A stretch of 64,000 nt of DNA, from contig JAKSIC010000004.1 of assembly GCA_024399015.1 (NCBI GenBank), forward strand, positions 1 through 64,000, in the 5' to 3' direction. The notes below the pieces were generated by a model that saw nothing but the letters and a program-made list of their open reading frames with translations, was not told the origin of the DNA and searched no databases. The position numbers and the translations under genes were made by a program. Numbering within the stretch: the stretch's first letter is position 1; the number at the start of each line of letters is the position of its first letter. This document shows positions 1,980 to 22,565 of this stretch, piece after piece. Origin of the DNA: Fibrobacter sp. GTDB lineage: Bacteria > Fibrobacterota > Fibrobacteria > Fibrobacterales > Fibrobacteraceae.

Positions 1980-2948
1980 ATGAGACATCGCATTCTTAAA
2001 ACTTTAATTACAGCGGCCGTATGCCTCATCGCTGTTGGTTGCAGTTCCACCAAGCCTGTCCCTTCTTCCGAAAACTTCGGCAATTTGTTCATCGGCGCCT
2101 GGGTGGGCGGCCCCGAAGAAATTCCCCAGCCCACCGTCGCTAACGTAGAGGCATTCGAGAAACTGCAGAACCGTCACCTGGACGTGATCAATCATTTTGT
2201 TCTTTGGCAGTACAATGACTGGGCATGGACCAAGCCCTACGCCGAAATGGCAAAGAGCCGCGGCTCCATCATGATGATTACCTGGATGCCTCAGCCCTAC
2301 ACCGCCCAGGACATTCTGGACGGCAAGACTGACGCCTACCTGGATGACTTCGCCAAGGGCGTCAAGGAATTCGGCGCAGAAATCTGGCTGCGACCGCTCC
2401 ACGAATCCAATGGCGACTGGTACACCTGGGGAACCGGCAAGGATTCAGAAAACAACTCCGAAGAAAAGGTTGCCGCAGCCTTCCGCCATATCGTAGACCG
2501 ATTCCGCGCACAAGGCGCCACCAACGTCAAATGGATCTGGACCACAAACGCAGGCAGCAGCGCAGGCGCCACACTCACCGGATCTTACCCCGGCGACGAC
2601 TACGTAGATTACACATCCATCGACGGCTACAACTGGGGAACTGCACAGAGCTGGTCCCATTGGCAATCCTTCTCCGAAGTTTTCAAGCCCGCCTACGATG
2701 CGCTTTCCGCCTACGACAAGCCCATGTTCATCGCAGAATTTTCCTGCACCGAGCACGGTGGCAGCAAGGCCGAATGGTTCAAGAACATGTTCGAGGTTCT
2801 GCCTACAGAATTCCCGAAAATCAAGGGTCTCGTCATCTTTAGCCAAAGCAAGAGTCACGAAGCCGACTGGGGCGTTGACACTTCCGAAGATGCCCTAAAT
2901 GCCTGGAAGAACGGCATCGCCGCCTACCCCGCCGCTAGCGCGAAATAG
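1980..2948 (+). CDS. GH26 endo-beta-1,4-mannanase, lipoprotein
   Basis: This 322-residue protein has a lipoprotein signal peptide (lipobox AVGC, Cys21) and a single GH26 catalytic domain (about residues 33-318). GH26 enzymes cut beta-mannan by a retaining mechanism with two Glu. The acid/base is Glu142 in RPLHESNGDW and the nucleophile is Glu253 in FIAEFSCTE. Substrate-site aromatics (WQYNDWAW, GYNWGTAQSW) are present. It is probably anchored at the cell envelope to attack hemicellulose. An AAAGGA ribosome-binding site precedes ATG 1980, and TATATT lies just upstream. The following gene is a paralogue with a near-identical catalytic domain. Confidence 0.92.
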   Translation: MRHRILKTLITAAVCLIAVGCSSTKPVPSSENFGNLFIGAWVGGPEEIPQPTVANVEAFEKLQNRHLDVINHFVLWQYNDWAWTKPYAEMAKSRGSIMMITWMPQPYTAQDILDGKTDAYLDDFAKGVKEFGAEIWLRPLHESNGDWYTWGTGKDSENNSEEKVAAAFRHIVDRFRAQGATNVKWIWTTNAGSSAGATLTGSYPGDDYVDYTSIDGYNWGTAQSWSHWQSFSEVFKPAYDALSAYDKPMFIAEFSCTEHGGSKAEWFKNMFEVLPTEFPKIKGLVIFSQSKSHEADWGVDTSEDALNAWKNGIAAYPAASAK

Positions 2949-3045
2949 TCCAAAAACAGTTACAACATTTTTTCTTTCAAGAGTCGTTAAAAAGAGTGTT
3001 TTCTTGCCGAGAATTTCTTATTTTTGGAGAATTGGAGGATAACAA

Positions 3046-4242
3046 GTGAAACATTCTTTTTTTAAATCTCTGGTCGCAGCCTGTGTTTGCGGCCTCGTTA
3101 TCGGTTGCGGTTCAGACAAGCCTTCTGCTCCCAGCGACAGCCCTATTCCAGGAGAATCCAGTTCTTCTTTCGAATTGCCCGGCAGTTCAGCCATTGCAGG
3201 CCTTAGCAGTTCCGCAACAGAAACACCCCTTAGCTCCATGGCACAGGTTACCACAAGCTCATCTTCGCAATTAATCAACCCAGCAAGTTCTTCGTCGCAA
3301 TTAATCAATCCGGTTAGTTCATCCTCAGAACAGCAAAATCCGATTTCTCAGAATTCCGAGACTTTCGATTCCATGTTCTTTGGCGCATGGGTGGGCGGTC
3401 CTGAAGAAGTTCCCCAGCCAACGGTCGCCAACGTAGAGGCCTTTGAAAAATTACAAGGCCGCCACCTGGATATCATCCATCATTTTGTCCTGTGGCAGTA
3501 CAATGACTGGGCATGGACCCAACCCTACGCCGAAATGGCAAGGAGCCGTGGCTCCATCATGATGATCACCTGGATGCCCCAGCCCTACACAGCACAGGAC
3601 ATTCTCGATGGCATCACCGATGATTACCTTGACGATTTCGCCGACGGTGTCAAGAATTTCCAAGACGAAATCTGGCTGCGACCGCTCCACGAATCCAACG
3701 GCGATTGGTACACCTGGAGCACCGGCAAGGACCCCGTCAACAACGCAGAAGACAAGGTGGCCGCAGCGTTCCGCTATATTGTTAAACGCTTCCGAGCCAA
3801 GAACGTCACCAATGTAAAGTGGGTCTGGACGACCAACGCTAGCAACAGCGGAGCAAAGTCCACATTGAAGGGTTCCTACCCTGGCAACGACTATGTAGAC
3901 TACACATCTATCGACGGCTACAACTGGGGTACCGCACAAAGCTGGTCTAGCTGGCAAAGCTTCTCCCAAGTGTTCAAGGCTGCATACAGAGCCATCGAAG
4001 GTTTCAACAAGCCCATGTTCATCGCAGAATTTTCCTGCACCGAGCACGGTGGCAGCAAGGCCGAATGGTTCAAGAACATGTTCGAGGTTCTGCCTACAGA
4101 ATTCCCGAAAATCAAGGGTCTGGTGATCTTTAGTCAAAGCAAGAACACCGAAGAAGCCGACTGGGGTCTGGACACATCCAACGAATCAATCAACGCGTGG
4201 AAAGAAGGCATCGCCGCCTTCCCCGCAGCCAAGCGCAACTAA
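3046..4242 (+). CDS. GH26 endo-beta-1,4-mannanase with Ser-rich linker, lipoprotein
   Basis: This 398-residue protein starts at GTG 3046 behind GGAGG. It has a lipobox (VIGC), a linker of about 80 residues rich in Ser with the repeated block SSSSQLINP, and a GH26 domain closely matching its upstream neighbour, including RPLHESNGDW (acid/base) and FIAEFSCTE (nucleophile). The linker should hold the enzyme away from the membrane, a common design in Fibrobacter surface enzymes. A 115-base stretch (4007-4121) is identical to 2716-2830 of the neighbour, while sequence outside it has diverged, suggesting gene conversion after tandem duplication. TATTTTTG at 3020-3027 may be a promoter element. Confidence 0.92.
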   Translation: MKHSFFKSLVAACVCGLVIGCGSDKPSAPSDSPIPGESSSSFELPGSSAIAGLSSSATETPLSSMAQVTTSSSSQLINPASSSSQLINPVSSSSEQQNPISQNSETFDSMFFGAWVGGPEEVPQPTVANVEAFEKLQGRHLDIIHHFVLWQYNDWAWTQPYAEMARSRGSIMMITWMPQPYTAQDILDGITDDYLDDFADGVKNFQDEIWLRPLHESNGDWYTWSTGKDPVNNAEDKVAAAFRYIVKRFRAKNVTNVKWVWTTNASNSGAKSTLKGSYPGNDYVDYTSIDGYNWGTAQSWSSWQSFSQVFKAAYRAIEGFNKPMFIAEFSCTEHGGSKAEWFKNMFEVLPTEFPKIKGLVIFSQSKNTEEADWGLDTSNESINAWKEGIAAFPAAKRN

Positions 4243-4311: not shown

Positions 4312-4330
4312 GCATTTGTATCATATACAG

Positions 4331-4453
4331 AATTCTTGTTTTATTTACACATTCAAGACGCAAATCAATCGGCAAAAAACGTCTATTTTTATAAAATTCC
4401 GTCATTTTTGTATCATTCACAAGTTATTTTAATAAAAAACAAGGGATAGCAAA
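4331..4453 (+). promoter_or_regulatory. AT-rich control region of the first TIGR02147 regulator
   Basis: The region is strongly AT-rich. It contains AATTCTTGTTTTAT, which recurs on the plus strand at 22551-22564 near the second TIGR02147 gene, and a TTTTATAAAA palindrome near 4385-4394, also found beside the second gene. TTTTTGTATCATT near 4400 resembles other putative -10 regions. Because the two shared elements flank both regulator genes they may be operators for autoregulation; this rests only on similarity by eye. Confidence 0.35.
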
Positions 4454-5269
4454 ATGAAACCAATTTTTGAATATCAAGACTACCGTGCCTACATGGGCGA
4501 CTATTATGACGATCGAAAGAAAAAATCCGCCTTTACCTGGCGCGACTTTTCCAAAGCCGCAGGTTTCGCCTCGCCTTCTTACTTGAAGTTGGTTTGCGAC
4601 GGAAAGAGTTCCCTAAGTCGCGTAGGCATGCCCAAGGTGGCCGCAGCCATGGGGCTCGCTGGAGCAGAACTTGCCTACTTCAAGGCCTTGGTTGAATTCG
4701 GCAACGCCAAGGACGACAAGAAGAAAACAAAGTTCCTTAACGAAATGACCCGTATCGCCACCGAGCTGAAGGTACGCGTTCTTTATGCAGACACATTCGC
4801 CTATTACGATTCCGCAGTCAATTCTATCGTTCGAGAATTGGCCCCTCTGATGCCGGGTGCCCTCCCCAATGACATCGCAAAGAAGATCAAGCACACCTTC
4901 TCCGCACAACATGTCAGAGAATCCCTGGCGTTCCTCACCAAAGCCGGCCTCCTGAGGGAAACAGATACAAACACCTACGAACAAACCGACAAGGCAATCA
5001 CAGGATCCAAGGAAGCAATTCCCCTGGCAATCCGCTCCATGAACCGCCAAATGATCGATTTAGCCAGGGAATCCTTGGACAAGGTCGATGCAAGTGAGCG
5101 AAACATTTCCGGCGTTACCATGGGAGTAAATGCAGATACCTATGCCCAAATAGCCAAGGAAGTCGACGCCTGTCGCAAAAAAATTATATCTATTGCAAAC
5201 AAATGCCAAGACATTGATCGAGTTTATCGATTAAATTTACAACTGTTCCCGTTAACGGATACGATCTAG
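4454..5269 (+). CDS. TIGR02147/DUF4423 family putative transcriptional regulator
   Basis: This 271-residue protein belongs to a family greatly expanded in Fibrobacter. It opens with PIFEYQDYRAYMGDYYDDRK, followed by a helix-turn-helix-like region (about residues 25-75: FTWRDFSKAAGFASPSYLKL, then SRVGMPKVAAAMGL), a helical middle and the typical ending VYRLNLQLFPLTD. DNA binding is inferred; the C-terminal DUF4423 region has no known ligand. The start follows AAGGG. A lipoprotein gene begins nine bases after its stop, so the two should be co-transcribed. The same regulator-then-lipoprotein order recurs at 22429-19703 on the other strand. Confidence 0.85.
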   Translation: MKPIFEYQDYRAYMGDYYDDRKKKSAFTWRDFSKAAGFASPSYLKLVCDGKSSLSRVGMPKVAAAMGLAGAELAYFKALVEFGNAKDDKKKTKFLNEMTRIATELKVRVLYADTFAYYDSAVNSIVRELAPLMPGALPNDIAKKIKHTFSAQHVRESLAFLTKAGLLRETDTNTYEQTDKAITGSKEAIPLAIRSMNRQMIDLARESLDKVDASERNISGVTMGVNADTYAQIAKEVDACRKKIISIANKCQDIDRVYRLNLQLFPLTDTI

Positions 5270-5278
5270 GAGACCAGC

Positions 5279-5995
5279 ATGAACATTCAAAAGTTTTCGA
5301 AAATATCAAAGGTCACACAGGCAGCCCTGCTCAGCCTTAGCCTTGCAACCTTTTTCTGCGCATGCACAGGAGCAAATGTCGCCGGCACCGACGAACATGG
5401 AAATTCCATTGCCGACGGAAATACTGGACTCCCGGACAAAGACTCCGAAAACGTTCCCCAACACGGAAACAATGGTCCCTCCAGCAGCACCCCCAGTTCC
5501 TCCAGCAGCGTCCCCAATTCCTCCAGCAGCACCCCCAGTTCCTCCAGCATCGCAATCGCACCGCAGTCCAGTTCCAGCGGAACCGGAGGTTCAATCGAAA
5601 AGAACGACCTGGACGAATTGCTGGAGGCAGCCGACAAAAACCTCACCTTGGGCAATGCAGTCGACTGCATCTGCGGAACATTCCTTACTGCAGAAACCGA
5701 ACTTGGCAAACTGGAATACAAAACAGAAAACCATTATCAATATATTTCTTGCGAAGAAAACAACGGAAGCATGGAATACTACCGGGTCACCAAAGAGTTC
5801 TACGAAATCATCAAGGTTTTCTACTCTGTAAACCCCGATGAACAGGAATTTTTCAAGGATAATTGCAGTAACGAACTTGGGACATACAAAGTCAGCGACA
5901 ACAGAGCTACATGTACGCTGGCCATGACCCAAGACTACAAAGACCCGAATTGGATCAACATGAAGGACTTGGTCATCAGCCACTGCATGGAATAA
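5279..5995 (+). CDS. Lipoprotein with poly-serine linker, partner of TIGR02147 gene
   Basis: This 238-residue protein starts behind TAGGAG. It has a signal peptide ending in a Cys-rich lipobox region (FFCACTG), an acidic segment, a repeat-rich linker of SSSSTP/SSSSVPN units (about residues 68-100) and a C-terminal domain of about 130 residues with six Cys (CICG, SCEE, NCSN, TCTL, HCME), probably disulfide-bonded. I do not recognise the C-terminal domain. It sits nine bases after the regulator and ahead of a strong terminator, so the two form a compact transcription unit. A regulated surface protein is the safest description. Confidence 0.7.
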   Translation: MNIQKFSKISKVTQAALLSLSLATFFCACTGANVAGTDEHGNSIADGNTGLPDKDSENVPQHGNNGPSSSTPSSSSSVPNSSSSTPSSSSIAIAPQSSSSGTGGSIEKNDLDELLEAADKNLTLGNAVDCICGTFLTAETELGKLEYKTENHYQYISCEENNGSMEYYRVTKEFYEIIKVFYSVNPDEQEFFKDNCSNELGTYKVSDNRATCTLAMTQDYKDPNWINMKDLVISHCME

Positions 5996-19702: not shown

Positions 19703-21592
19703 TTATTCTTCGTACTTACGCCATTTTTGGCCGTCGCACACGACAGTATCACTAACCGCGCCCGAACCCATCGGATTGCCCCCACTTATAGCTTGCACAG
19801 TTTCATTTCCATTACAGCCTCCATGAATACTATACATTCGGGTATAAGCCGGAGATTCTACGAAAACAACAGAATCCTTCAAGTTTTCATTGCACTTCAA
19901 CAAAGTTCCCGAAAAAGCATTGTTTACAGTAAAGCATATCAATTGACCATCGGTACAAACTTTTTCAGATGTTAAACAATTTGTAGTACAATATTCTGAC
20001 TTACATAAAGGTTCATCAACCATCCAACCATTTCGTGAACAACGAGCATAAGTGATCTTTTCATTCTGGGTTCCAACCCCTAAAGTTTTCAAGACATACT
20101 CACCGATATTATTCTCGTCGCAGACTTGATTTTCCACAGCCTTTTCCACGGCACTGAATTCGCGAATCACCCCGTCAGCGCACCAATACACATTGTTCCT
20201 GTACACGGTTCCATTCAACAGCGTTGGCTCGGTAAGTTTACGGCAACTATCTCTCAAGTCAACGGTATTGGTATAAATCATAGGAGCCTCATTCCAATGA
20301 CCTGTAGCGGAGTCACAGACGAAATACTGATTCAGGTAGGTCACGGAACTTGTATCCCACACTGCAGCAATTTTATCCGACGTTGATTGTCCAGGTTTCT
20401 TGTGAACAGCACAGGCAGCACCACCATTGGCGATCATTATGGAATCCACATCATCACCAGCAAACCATTTTTCGCCATCAAAAACATAGATCCTCCTAGG
20501 ATCAACATCACCATGACGGATTTCCCCAGCTTCGGCGTCGTTATCCCAGCCTTCGGTATCTAATTTTCTCTGAGCATCGATCTGATAATCCTTAATTTCC
20601 TTATCTGTTGCTTCTCGCCAACCATTTTCGTCACAAGTGAATGTTGAATTCGCATTCGAACTAATAGCGTTCAAATTAGGCTTTGTTTCACCTCGATTCT
20701 TTTCGCTGCAATCTCCTAAACCATAATTATACCACCAGTAGCGATGTGCGTACTTTTCAAAATTAGAAGCAGTCCCCAAATTCCAGGACTCAATATGTCG
20801 TCTATATTCAGCCATATAGAAATCCGGATTGCTGCTAGAGAAACAGTCTGCAATTTGGGTTTTCACAGAATCGTTGTTCCACAAGCCATCCTTCTCCAGG
20901 TCCAACGAAATATCAGACATCAATGCAACCAGATCAGCCTCGGATCGCGATTGCAACATCGCTATTTGGTTACAACCCTGCTGCAGCAAAATTGAAATGC
21001 CCAACAAAGCTGCGTCACCTTCTTCCTCGTTGAAAATATTCAGGTCTTCAAAATCGGCTTGAACATTATCCATATAGAAGGCTTTCAGAACTTCCTCTTC
21101 CGCCTGTTTCTTTGCTTGCGCAACAGACATTCCATTCTTTACTAGGTAAAGAACTCGGTCAAAAGAGATGTTTGTCAAAAGGTTAATGTTCACTGTTTCT
21201 CGTTTACTCAAATCCGATACAGCAAGAAGCGTTATGGGAGCATTTGATTTTTCGCCGGTAATTTCATTTCGGTAGAAGCCTTCCGCTTCCAGCAAGACAT
21301 ATTGTGATTTCAGGTTCACATCCGAGAAAGAGAAATCACCCTTGTCGCTGTTAACCTTTCCCATAAAAACGGAACCAGTCTGTGCAAGAGTTCTAGGATT
21401 AAGTCCATAAAGATGAACACTAGAGCCTTTCACAAACGGTCCTTTCTGAGATACACCGGAAACGGTCTTGTCTACAATGGCAATACCCTGAGTTTCTTCA
21501 GTAACTCCGCCTGCGGTCTTATCGTCGCCGCAGGCCCAGAAAGCAAGTCCACACAAGCCCACCAAGCATAGCATGTTATTCAAGTATTTCAT
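19703..21592 (-). CDS. Large Cys-rich lipoprotein, partner of second TIGR02147 gene
   Basis: This 629-residue protein starts behind AGGAGGAAC. It has a lipobox (FWACG), an N-terminal region resembling a carboxypeptidase-regulatory-like beta domain (SGVSQKGPFVKGSSVHLYGL...NSDKGDFSFSDVNLKSQYVLLEAEGFY), a helical middle and a long Cys-rich C-terminal half with repeated short beta motifs (CDENGWRE, YVFDGEKWFAG, CDSATGHWNEAP, CADGVIREF, CDGQKWRKYEE). These repeats resemble those in other large Fibrobacter lipoproteins. Its start lies 12 bases after the TIGR02147 regulator, repeating the pairing at 4454-5995. Function unknown; surface recognition is plausible. Confidence 0.7.
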   Translation of the reverse strand: MKYLNNMLCLVGLCGLAFWACGDDKTAGGVTEETQGIAIVDKTVSGVSQKGPFVKGSSVHLYGLNPRTLAQTGSVFMGKVNSDKGDFSFSDVNLKSQYVLLEAEGFYRNEITGEKSNAPITLLAVSDLSKRETVNINLLTNISFDRVLYLVKNGMSVAQAKKQAEEEVLKAFYMDNVQADFEDLNIFNEEEGDAALLGISILLQQGCNQIAMLQSRSEADLVALMSDISLDLEKDGLWNNDSVKTQIADCFSSSNPDFYMAEYRRHIESWNLGTASNFEKYAHRYWWYNYGLGDCSEKNRGETKPNLNAISSNANSTFTCDENGWREATDKEIKDYQIDAQRKLDTEGWDNDAEAGEIRHGDVDPRRIYVFDGEKWFAGDDVDSIMIANGGAACAVHKKPGQSTSDKIAAVWDTSSVTYLNQYFVCDSATGHWNEAPMIYTNTVDLRDSCRKLTEPTLLNGTVYRNNVYWCADGVIREFSAVEKAVENQVCDENNIGEYVLKTLGVGTQNEKITYARCSRNGWMVDEPLCKSEYCTTNCLTSEKVCTDGQLICFTVNNAFSGTLLKCNENLKDSVVFVESPAYTRMYSIHGGCNGNETVQAISGGNPMGSGAVSDTVVCDGQKWRKYEE

Positions 21593-21604: not shown

Positions 21605-22429
21605 CTAACCATTCAAAGATTTTGTCAACGGAAACAGTTGCAAGTTCAATCGATAAACCTGATCTGTTTCATCATCGTCTGTTGCGATCGCAATAACTCT
21701 TCTACGGAACTCCGCCATTTCTTCAAGGATCTTTCCGTAGGCTTTTTTCGTAATTCCAAGAGTGAGACCGCTAAAGTTTCGTTCCGTTATGGGCAAATCC
21801 ATCAAGGCATTCTTTGCCAGTTCAGCCATTTCCAACTGCATTGCATGAACAGCTTCAGGCACCACATCCATCGGACCCGTAGAAATCACGCGGTCAGTCA
21901 AATGATAACAGCCTTCGTTATCTTGGGATAGCAATTCGCGATCCTTCAAAAACTTGATTGTTTCTACAACTTCCGCAGCACTGACTCTTGGATAGCACTG
22001 ATCAGCAATTTCAGAAGGTTTGGCATTAGGCATTGCCGGCACCAATTCGCGAAGTACCGGATTACGCCAAGACGAAAAGTAATTGAAGAATTCATCGCCT
22101 GCGATTTTTACCTTATGTTCCTTTCCCAAGGTAATCATTTTTTCGAAAGCGGTCCGTTTTTCTTCGCGACCTTTAGCATCGTTATATTCCACCATCAACA
22201 GAAAATATTTCTGTTCATAACCAGCAAGCCCCATGGCCTCAGCAGTCTTTGCAGCTCCCTCCTGAGTGAGACGAGTCTTTCCATCACACACAAGTTTCAA
22301 ATAAGAACCCGAAGCATAACCCGCAACCTTCGCAAATTCACGCCAAGTAAATCCGGAACGTTCCTTGCGTTCCCGGTAATAATCATTTATATAAACACGG
22401 TAATCTTTATATTCGATTATAGGTCTCAT
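21605..22429 (-). CDS. TIGR02147/DUF4423 family putative transcriptional regulator, second copy
   Basis: This protein of about 274 residues is co-linear with the 4454-5269 gene product: PIIEYKDYRVYINDYYRERK, the HTH-like FTWREFAKVAGYASGSYLKL and TQEGAAKTAEAMGL, and the ending VYRLNLQLFPLTKS. The two are clear paralogues with divergent middle regions. ATG 22429 is preferred over the in-frame TTG three bases upstream. No ribosome-binding site is visible, but TATATTGG lies six bases before the ATG, close to the leaderless pattern. It is followed 12 bases later by a lipoprotein gene, so the regulator-lipoprotein order is conserved between loci. Confidence 0.85.
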   Translation of the reverse strand: MRPIIEYKDYRVYINDYYRERKERSGFTWREFAKVAGYASGSYLKLVCDGKTRLTQEGAAKTAEAMGLAGYEQKYFLLMVEYNDAKGREEKRTAFEKMITLGKEHKVKIAGDEFFNYFSSWRNPVLRELVPAMPNAKPSEIADQCYPRVSAAEVVETIKFLKDRELLSQDNEGCYHLTDRVISTGPMDVVPEAVHAMQLEMAELAKNALMDLPITERNFSGLTLGITKKAYGKILEEMAEFRRRVIAIATDDDETDQVYRLNLQLFPLTKSLNG

Positions 22430-22432
22430 CAA

Positions 22433-22565
22433 GAACCAATATAGCTAAGCATTTTATAAAAAACAACAATTTTATAGAACAAAAAGCATAATTTTTAATA
22501 AGTTTTCAAAGTTTTTAATAAACATTAATAATTTTGTTTTATATGAAACATAATTCTTGTTTTAT
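22433..22565 (-). promoter_or_regulatory. AT-rich control region of the second TIGR02147 regulator
   Basis: The region is very AT-rich, with TTTTATAAAA palindromes at about 22453 and 22559 and a related TTTTATAGAAC near 22470. It also holds AATTCTTGTTTTAT, shared with the upstream region of the other regulator gene (4331-4346) but in opposite orientation relative to its gene. TATATTGG at 22436-22443 may be the promoter element. Confidence 0.35.

Follow-up and report, generated by a model that had tools for sequence, protein, structure and literature searches.

Both genes of the TIGR02147 regulator family in the window (the whole stretch of DNA that was analysed, 64,000 nucleotides of a Fibrobacter sp. 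contig) are directly followed by a lipoprotein gene, and the two pairs have counterparts throughout the genome and across Fibrobacterota. Each such unit is probably a dedicated, self-targeting operon in which the regulator controls itself and its own lipoprotein, and the many copies would give the cell a choice of displayed heads. The pairing of the genes, the repeats in their promoters, the signature peptide of the lipoproteins and the co-divergence of the partners can all be read directly in the sequences, and are described in turn below.

The two pairs of the window

The pairs comprise the following features.

4454 to 5269, plus strand: regulator 1, TIGR02147/DUF4423, HTH and winged helix (NCBIfam 308.7 bits, 3.5e-92; Pfam DUF4423 92.1 bits)
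5279 to 5995, plus strand: lipoprotein 1, lipidated Cys29 (codon 5363-5365) by a custom lipobox rule, Ser-rich linker
5378 to 5413, plus strand: signature peptide VAGTDEHGNSIA of lipoprotein 1, 5 residues past the lipidated Cys
21605 to 22429, minus strand: regulator 2, TIGR02147/DUF4423 (NCBIfam 300.6 bits, 1e-89; DUF4423 84.7 bits), alternative TTG start at 22432
19703 to 21592, minus strand: lipoprotein 2, 629 aa, lipidated Cys21 (codon 21530-21532), with an 'SQKGPF' domain common to other followers
21479 to 21514, minus strand: signature peptide AGGVTEETQGIA of lipoprotein 2 (38.0 bits, the sequence itself being part of the profile model)

In each pair the lipoprotein gene lies on the same strand directly after the regulator gene, with gaps of 9 and 12 bp, as had been noted originally, and the coordinates are exact. 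The two lipoproteins had also been called unrelated. This holds over their length, where no significant BLASTP similarity is found, but not for the segment after the cysteine, where a common signature is present. Neither lipoprotein has a Pfam or NCBIfam match. The regulators are 44% identical to each other and match TIGR02147 over positions 1-271/272, above the curated cut-off of 50 bits. Both are clear members of TIGR02147 (NCBIfam 'Fsuc_second', type paralog) and of Pfam DUF4423. These are family names only, and no partner, operator or function was found described in the literature searched. The only mention of DUF4423 there concerns a protein of Bdellovibrio that is upregulated during growth in prey (PMC12546842).

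AlphaFold2 models of 13 sequences, of good confidence over residues 1-180, give an all-helical HTH domain (residues 1-100) and a winged helix (112-177), followed by a poorly modelled C-terminus. Weak profile matches lie at fitting positions, to the HTH chain 3kxa and the winged-helix chain 3b73 (PDB, E about 0.01), and a regulator of PHROG 2440 matches the wing (1.8e-4). No TPR fold of the kind typical of RRNPP proteins can be recognised from the secondary structure of the model. With this HTH and winged-helix fold, TIGR02147 proteins are probably DNA-binding regulators.

Pair 1 is retained in all 12 of 12 orthologous loci despite differing upstream genes. Upstream of it in the window (1980-4242) are two neighbouring, nearly duplicate GH26-type lipoproteins, which are considered to lie outside the module because they do not adjoin pair 1 in most other orthologous loci.

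Pairing in the genome and across Fibrobacterota

Genes were called with a simple custom codon-pair caller and lipoproteins with the custom lipobox rule. The genome contains 26 TIGR02147 genes, and 24 of them are followed, at a spacing of -14 to +42 bp, by a co-directional gene for a protein with a signal peptide and a lipobox-like cysteine. At the other two loci, L040 and L045, a convergent gene faces the TIGR02147 gene and there is no lipoprotein partner. Under the strict lipobox rule, 23 of the 24 co-directional followers are lipoproteins. Other genes reach 65 of 465 by this rule (Fisher, 1.1e-17), and among co-directional genes at similarly close spacing the count is 28 of 179 (Fisher, 3.2e-15). 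The pairing in the window is thus not due to chance. At L044 (6865-7878) the TIGR02147 gene precedes a solute-binding lipoprotein of the TRAP/TAXI type (NMT1_3).

Of 121 genomes of Fibrobacterota that were searched, 111 contain TIGR02147, and tens of copies per genome are frequent; the same search found none in genera g15 and g19. A distant set of 80 TIGR02147 loci from 14 distant genomes included 71 with a called gene and a follower. The follower is co-directional and no more than 100 bp away in 65 of these, 34 of which have a 4-bp overlap of the ATGA type. The strict lipobox test is passed by 53 followers, and most others are clear lipoproteins in which the residue preceding the cysteine is unusual. 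In the distant-family genome G012, neither of the two TIGR02147 genes (L173 and L174) has a lipoprotein partner; possibly, the regulator has a different role there, or an older one.

In other Fibrobacter the pairs also form tandem arrays, and a partner is present for 35 of the 37 TIGR02147 genes there. The second lipoprotein of an operon in the arrays L252-L263 often repeats the signature variant of the first, for instance AGGTTEDAGII twice. The core copy of the pair is present in 60 of 61 genomes, and the paralogue L037 in 2 of 61.

The idea that these are cognate pairs was to fall if the downstream neighbours of TIGR02147 genes proved random in function and orientation. The listing of neighbours in the genome and in the distant set reveals the opposite. 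Together with the co-divergence of regulator and lipoprotein and the distinct promoter repeats of each lineage tested, the non-random followers strongly support cognate pairs.

Putative operators

Repeats in the same direction precede the regulator genes, and the candidate operators of the window are as follows.

4316 to 4324, plus strand: candidate operator copy 1, TTGTATCAT, distal, conserved in 13 orthologous loci
4336 to 4344, plus strand: candidate operator copy 2, TTGTTTTAT (GTGATTCAT or TTGTTTCAT in orthologues), conserved across orthologous loci
4408 to 4416, plus strand: candidate operator copy 3, TTGTATCAT, proximal, 38-46 bp before the start codon, conserved
22455 to 22548, minus strand: tentative operator region of regulator 2, with TTTCATA (22542-22548), TTGTTCTATA (22473-22482) and TTGTTTTTTATA (22455-22466)

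The three repeats of pair 1 are conserved in the 13 loci even though the genes upstream differ. Within the genome of 3.34 Mb there is a single occurrence of the double site TTGTATCAT-N70..100-TTGTATCAT, and TTTTGTATCAT is present only twice. No clear -35 and -10 elements are seen in the promoter of regulator 1. The region of regulator 2 was assigned solely by its resemblance to the paralogue L037, since its orthologues are too few for footprinting.

Two further lineages have repeats of their own. In the core lineage the sites are of the GTGTTCCC type, in about four same-direction copies, two of which are 11 bp apart. At least two GTGTTC copies are present in 43 of 44 loci, with a mean of 3.7 per 230 bp compared to 0.05 in shuffled sequences. 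In the third lineage TTTTGTTTCAT occurs twice in each of two loci, with a promoter resembling TTGAC-17-TTACAT just downstream of the proximal copy. A generic test for direct repeats over all 26 upstream regions is only marginal (p=0.047), and putative operators are therefore proposed for these three lineages only. A wider regulon was considered and rejected, as the double site of the window is unique and the one extra match of the core pattern is at the level of the reversed control.

A conserved putative small RNA, formed by TATATTTAGGGAACACCCAATCCCATCCCTC, a hairpin and then a poly-T run, lies on the strand opposite to the core TIGR02147 promoter at L028 (C23:17322-18173, minus strand) and also at L266-L309. 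It has no Rfam match, and the genome has a single copy of its conserved segment.

The signature peptide

A few residues past the lipidated cysteine, the followers have a common signature, approximately C-[ST]-x(2-8)-AGG-x-[ST]-[ED]-[TA]-[GET]-N-[AST]. When lipoproteins of the genome were scored with a profile trained only on loci of other genera, the 17 best were 16 TIGR02147 followers and one orphan (Mann-Whitney, 1.2e-8); this orphan is the only one with the signature among the 61 other lipoproteins scored. When the whole genome was searched with a mixed profile, 15 distinct proteins matched at E<0.01, and 14 of these are TIGR02147 followers. The recall of this second search is circular, as the model includes sequences from the same genome, but the lack of other matches is not. 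There was no full-length match to the profile in seven genomes without TIGR02147. Three followers in the genome, at L042, L044 and L046, do not have the signature. The orphan, L061 (10535-12181; C23:110535-112181, minus strand), is a lipoprotein with the full signature AGNSAETGSPELAG and no adjoining TIGR02147 gene, and it lies 148 bp before a co-directional gene with GH10 xylanase-like sequence.

Among 44 orthologues of the core pair, a nine-residue stretch of the signature exists in four variants: GTVTDTGNT (25), GTATQTENT (8), GTATDTENM (6) and GTATDTENT (5). Synonymous codons are used freely within it, which rules out conservation as DNA. Where the regulators are 0.88-0.94 identical, the signature is 100% identical, while the lipoprotein bodies are 59% and the signal peptides 33% identical. 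The few protein variants, the free codons and the divergence of body and signal peptide all indicate that the constraint acts on the signature peptide.

Lipoprotein bodies and their co-divergence with the regulators

A transthyretin-like CarboxypepD_reg domain is found in 11 of the 24 followers in the genome and in 48 of 61 distant followers. Beyond it are laminin-G/concanavalin domains, NHL, Kelch and Reg_prop propellers, LRR, DUF2341, fn3 and Fib_succ_major domains and one pectate lyase. By these domain matches, the heads of the lipoproteins are binding or carbohydrate-active folds. In F. succinogenes, 40 of 49 quantified lipoproteins are lower on cellulose, several of them with carboxypeptidase-regulatory domains, although they were not assigned to TIGR02147 pairs (PMC6851124).

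The divergence of the regulators correlates with that of both parts of their lipoproteins (Mantel, 0.57 with the signature and 0.69 with the body). As the body is tracked at least as well, the correlation does not point to co-evolution specific to regulator and signature, and no clear result emerged for co-evolution of the signature with any single regulator domain. The co-divergence of the body rules out, as a general rule, that bodies are freely swapped while the signature stays.

Proposed mechanism and its alternatives

By combining these observations, it is possible to outline how a unit may operate. The TIGR02147 protein would bind the two to four same-direction repeats, specific to its lineage, in the promoter of its own operon, the proximal copy being placed at the -35 region. 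It would then control transcription of itself and of the translationally coupled lipoprotein. The location of the proximal repeat near -35 favors activation over repression, and the regulator is more likely an activator. The repeats before its own gene, the lack of another obvious target of pair 1, the coupled translation and the co-divergence all suggest a self-targeting regulator of one lipoprotein. The lipoprotein is the presumed output, anchored in the envelope and probably exposed at the surface, with the conserved N-terminal signature beside the lipid and often with a transthyretin-like (CarboxypepD_reg) stalk that would carry a variable binding or enzymatic head. With many such copies in parallel, the cell might choose which heads to display in response to some input signal. 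Of the two directions originally proposed, a regulator controlling its surface protein is the better supported, and one responding to it is possible.

The second direction would make the lipoprotein a sensor, the head of which binds a ligand outside the cell, while the signature, either directly or after its release as a fragment, signals to the cognate regulator in the cytoplasm. The strongest indication of a part in the circuit, either as a sensor link or as a feedback element, is that the signature occurs almost exclusively in lipoproteins linked to a regulator. Its absence from genomes without TIGR02147, its invariance as protein with free codons, the repetition of the first signature variant in second lipoproteins of the same operon and the likeness of the heads to ligand binders are also in line with sensing. 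However, the operon has no inner-membrane transducer, the repeats of the regulator are found only before its own operon, so that no other output is visible, and the regulator follows the signature no better than it follows the lipoprotein body. Because the co-divergence test does not single the signature out, its participation in the circuit stays a minority reading, and a sensor appears somewhat unlikely. It is harder still to credit that such lipoproteins serve the whole phylum as outside-in sensors, reporting ligand binding via the post-cysteine peptide, possibly released, to their own TIGR02147 regulators. If they did, insoluble polysaccharides or neighbours would be sensed by tens of parallel lipoprotein/one-component pairs, with no kinases or anti-sigma factors. 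The signature is also unlikely to be a mere export or anchoring signal of surface lipoproteins whose genes are in operons with TIGR02147 by coincidence. It does lie close after the lipidated cysteine, like the lipoprotein export signal of Bacteroidota (PMC5080379), but it differs from that signal, which is an acidic K-(D/E)2 at +3 to +5. Apart from the one orphan, the other lipoproteins scored in the genome do not have it, which makes a pure sorting signal hard to accept, and genomes that lack TIGR02147 lack the signature too.

The original prediction also raised a switchable surface-antigen system; in such a system the pairs would be expressed singly. The many paralogues, the tandem arrays and the rapid turnover, apparent when L037 is compared with the core copy, would suit such a system; yet the pairs stay coherent, as seen in their co-divergence, and no inverting DNA, recombinase or phase-variable tract was noticed while reading the loci, which leaves it improbable. 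An HTH protein next to a lipoprotein might also suggest a phage-type repressor with a lysogenic-conversion lipoprotein, or a defence module. This is very improbable indeed, given that the core copy is present across the genus and that no match was found in viral contigs, plasmids or PADLOC. The self-targeting operon is the preferred reading.

Comparison with known systems

Autoregulated operons of one-component regulators with the class II activator architecture are known. The TIGR02147 units resemble them in the direct repeats of their own promoter, the proximal copy near -35 and the presumably co-transcribed target, but differ in their tens of parallel paralogues per genome, which all have a lipoprotein and a repeat sequence of their own, and in the shared signature peptide. 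In cell-surface signalling (FecR/ECF sigma and PUL-type sensors), an envelope protein for recognition is paired with a transcription regulator, in many copies. The multi-copy pairing of envelope protein and regulator is alike, whereas neither an anti-sigma factor nor a TonB receptor nor an inner-membrane kinase is encoded in the TIGR02147 operon.

The Bacteroidota lipoprotein export signal, K-(D/E)2 at +3 to +5, is general to surface lipoproteins (PMC5080379). Both it and the Fibrobacterota signature are short conserved sequences just past the lipidated cysteine, but the latter is AGGxTETGNA-like, lies further in and is almost confined to regulator-linked lipoproteins. Neither K-(D/E)2 nor an acidic run was found at +2 to +6 after the cysteine in the alignments of followers. 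Enterococcal peptide pheromones are cut from lipoprotein signal peptides and have cytoplasmic receptors (PMC7074142, PMC7117660). The likeness applies to the sensor alternative only, where a DNA-binding protein would sense a peptide derived from a lipoprotein; in the TIGR02147 pairs it is the mature protein, and not the signal peptide, that contains the conserved part, and release and import are hypothetical.

The literature searched contained no mention of TIGR02147 or of the signature string and, in keeping with the expectation of an undescribed system, no description of the regulator-lipoprotein pairs. While autoregulated operons are already known, the massively paralogous, signature-tagged family of regulator-lipoprotein pairs is, within that literature, new.

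Implications for Fibrobacterota

How cellulase genes are regulated is listed as an unanswered question in the genome paper on F. succinogenes, which notes few regulators in their vicinity (PMC3079729). The present analysis identifies tens of regulators per genome that are probably dedicated, and these come with specific predicted operators and with specific envelope proteins that have domains of the binding type. The signature peptide may be used as a sequence tag for finding such proteins, and is itself a candidate signalling or sorting element. The pair family points to an undescribed system for selecting the surface proteins that are displayed. With probable dedicated regulators and specific predicted operators, surface remodelling would become testable gene by gene in a major fibre-degrading phylum.
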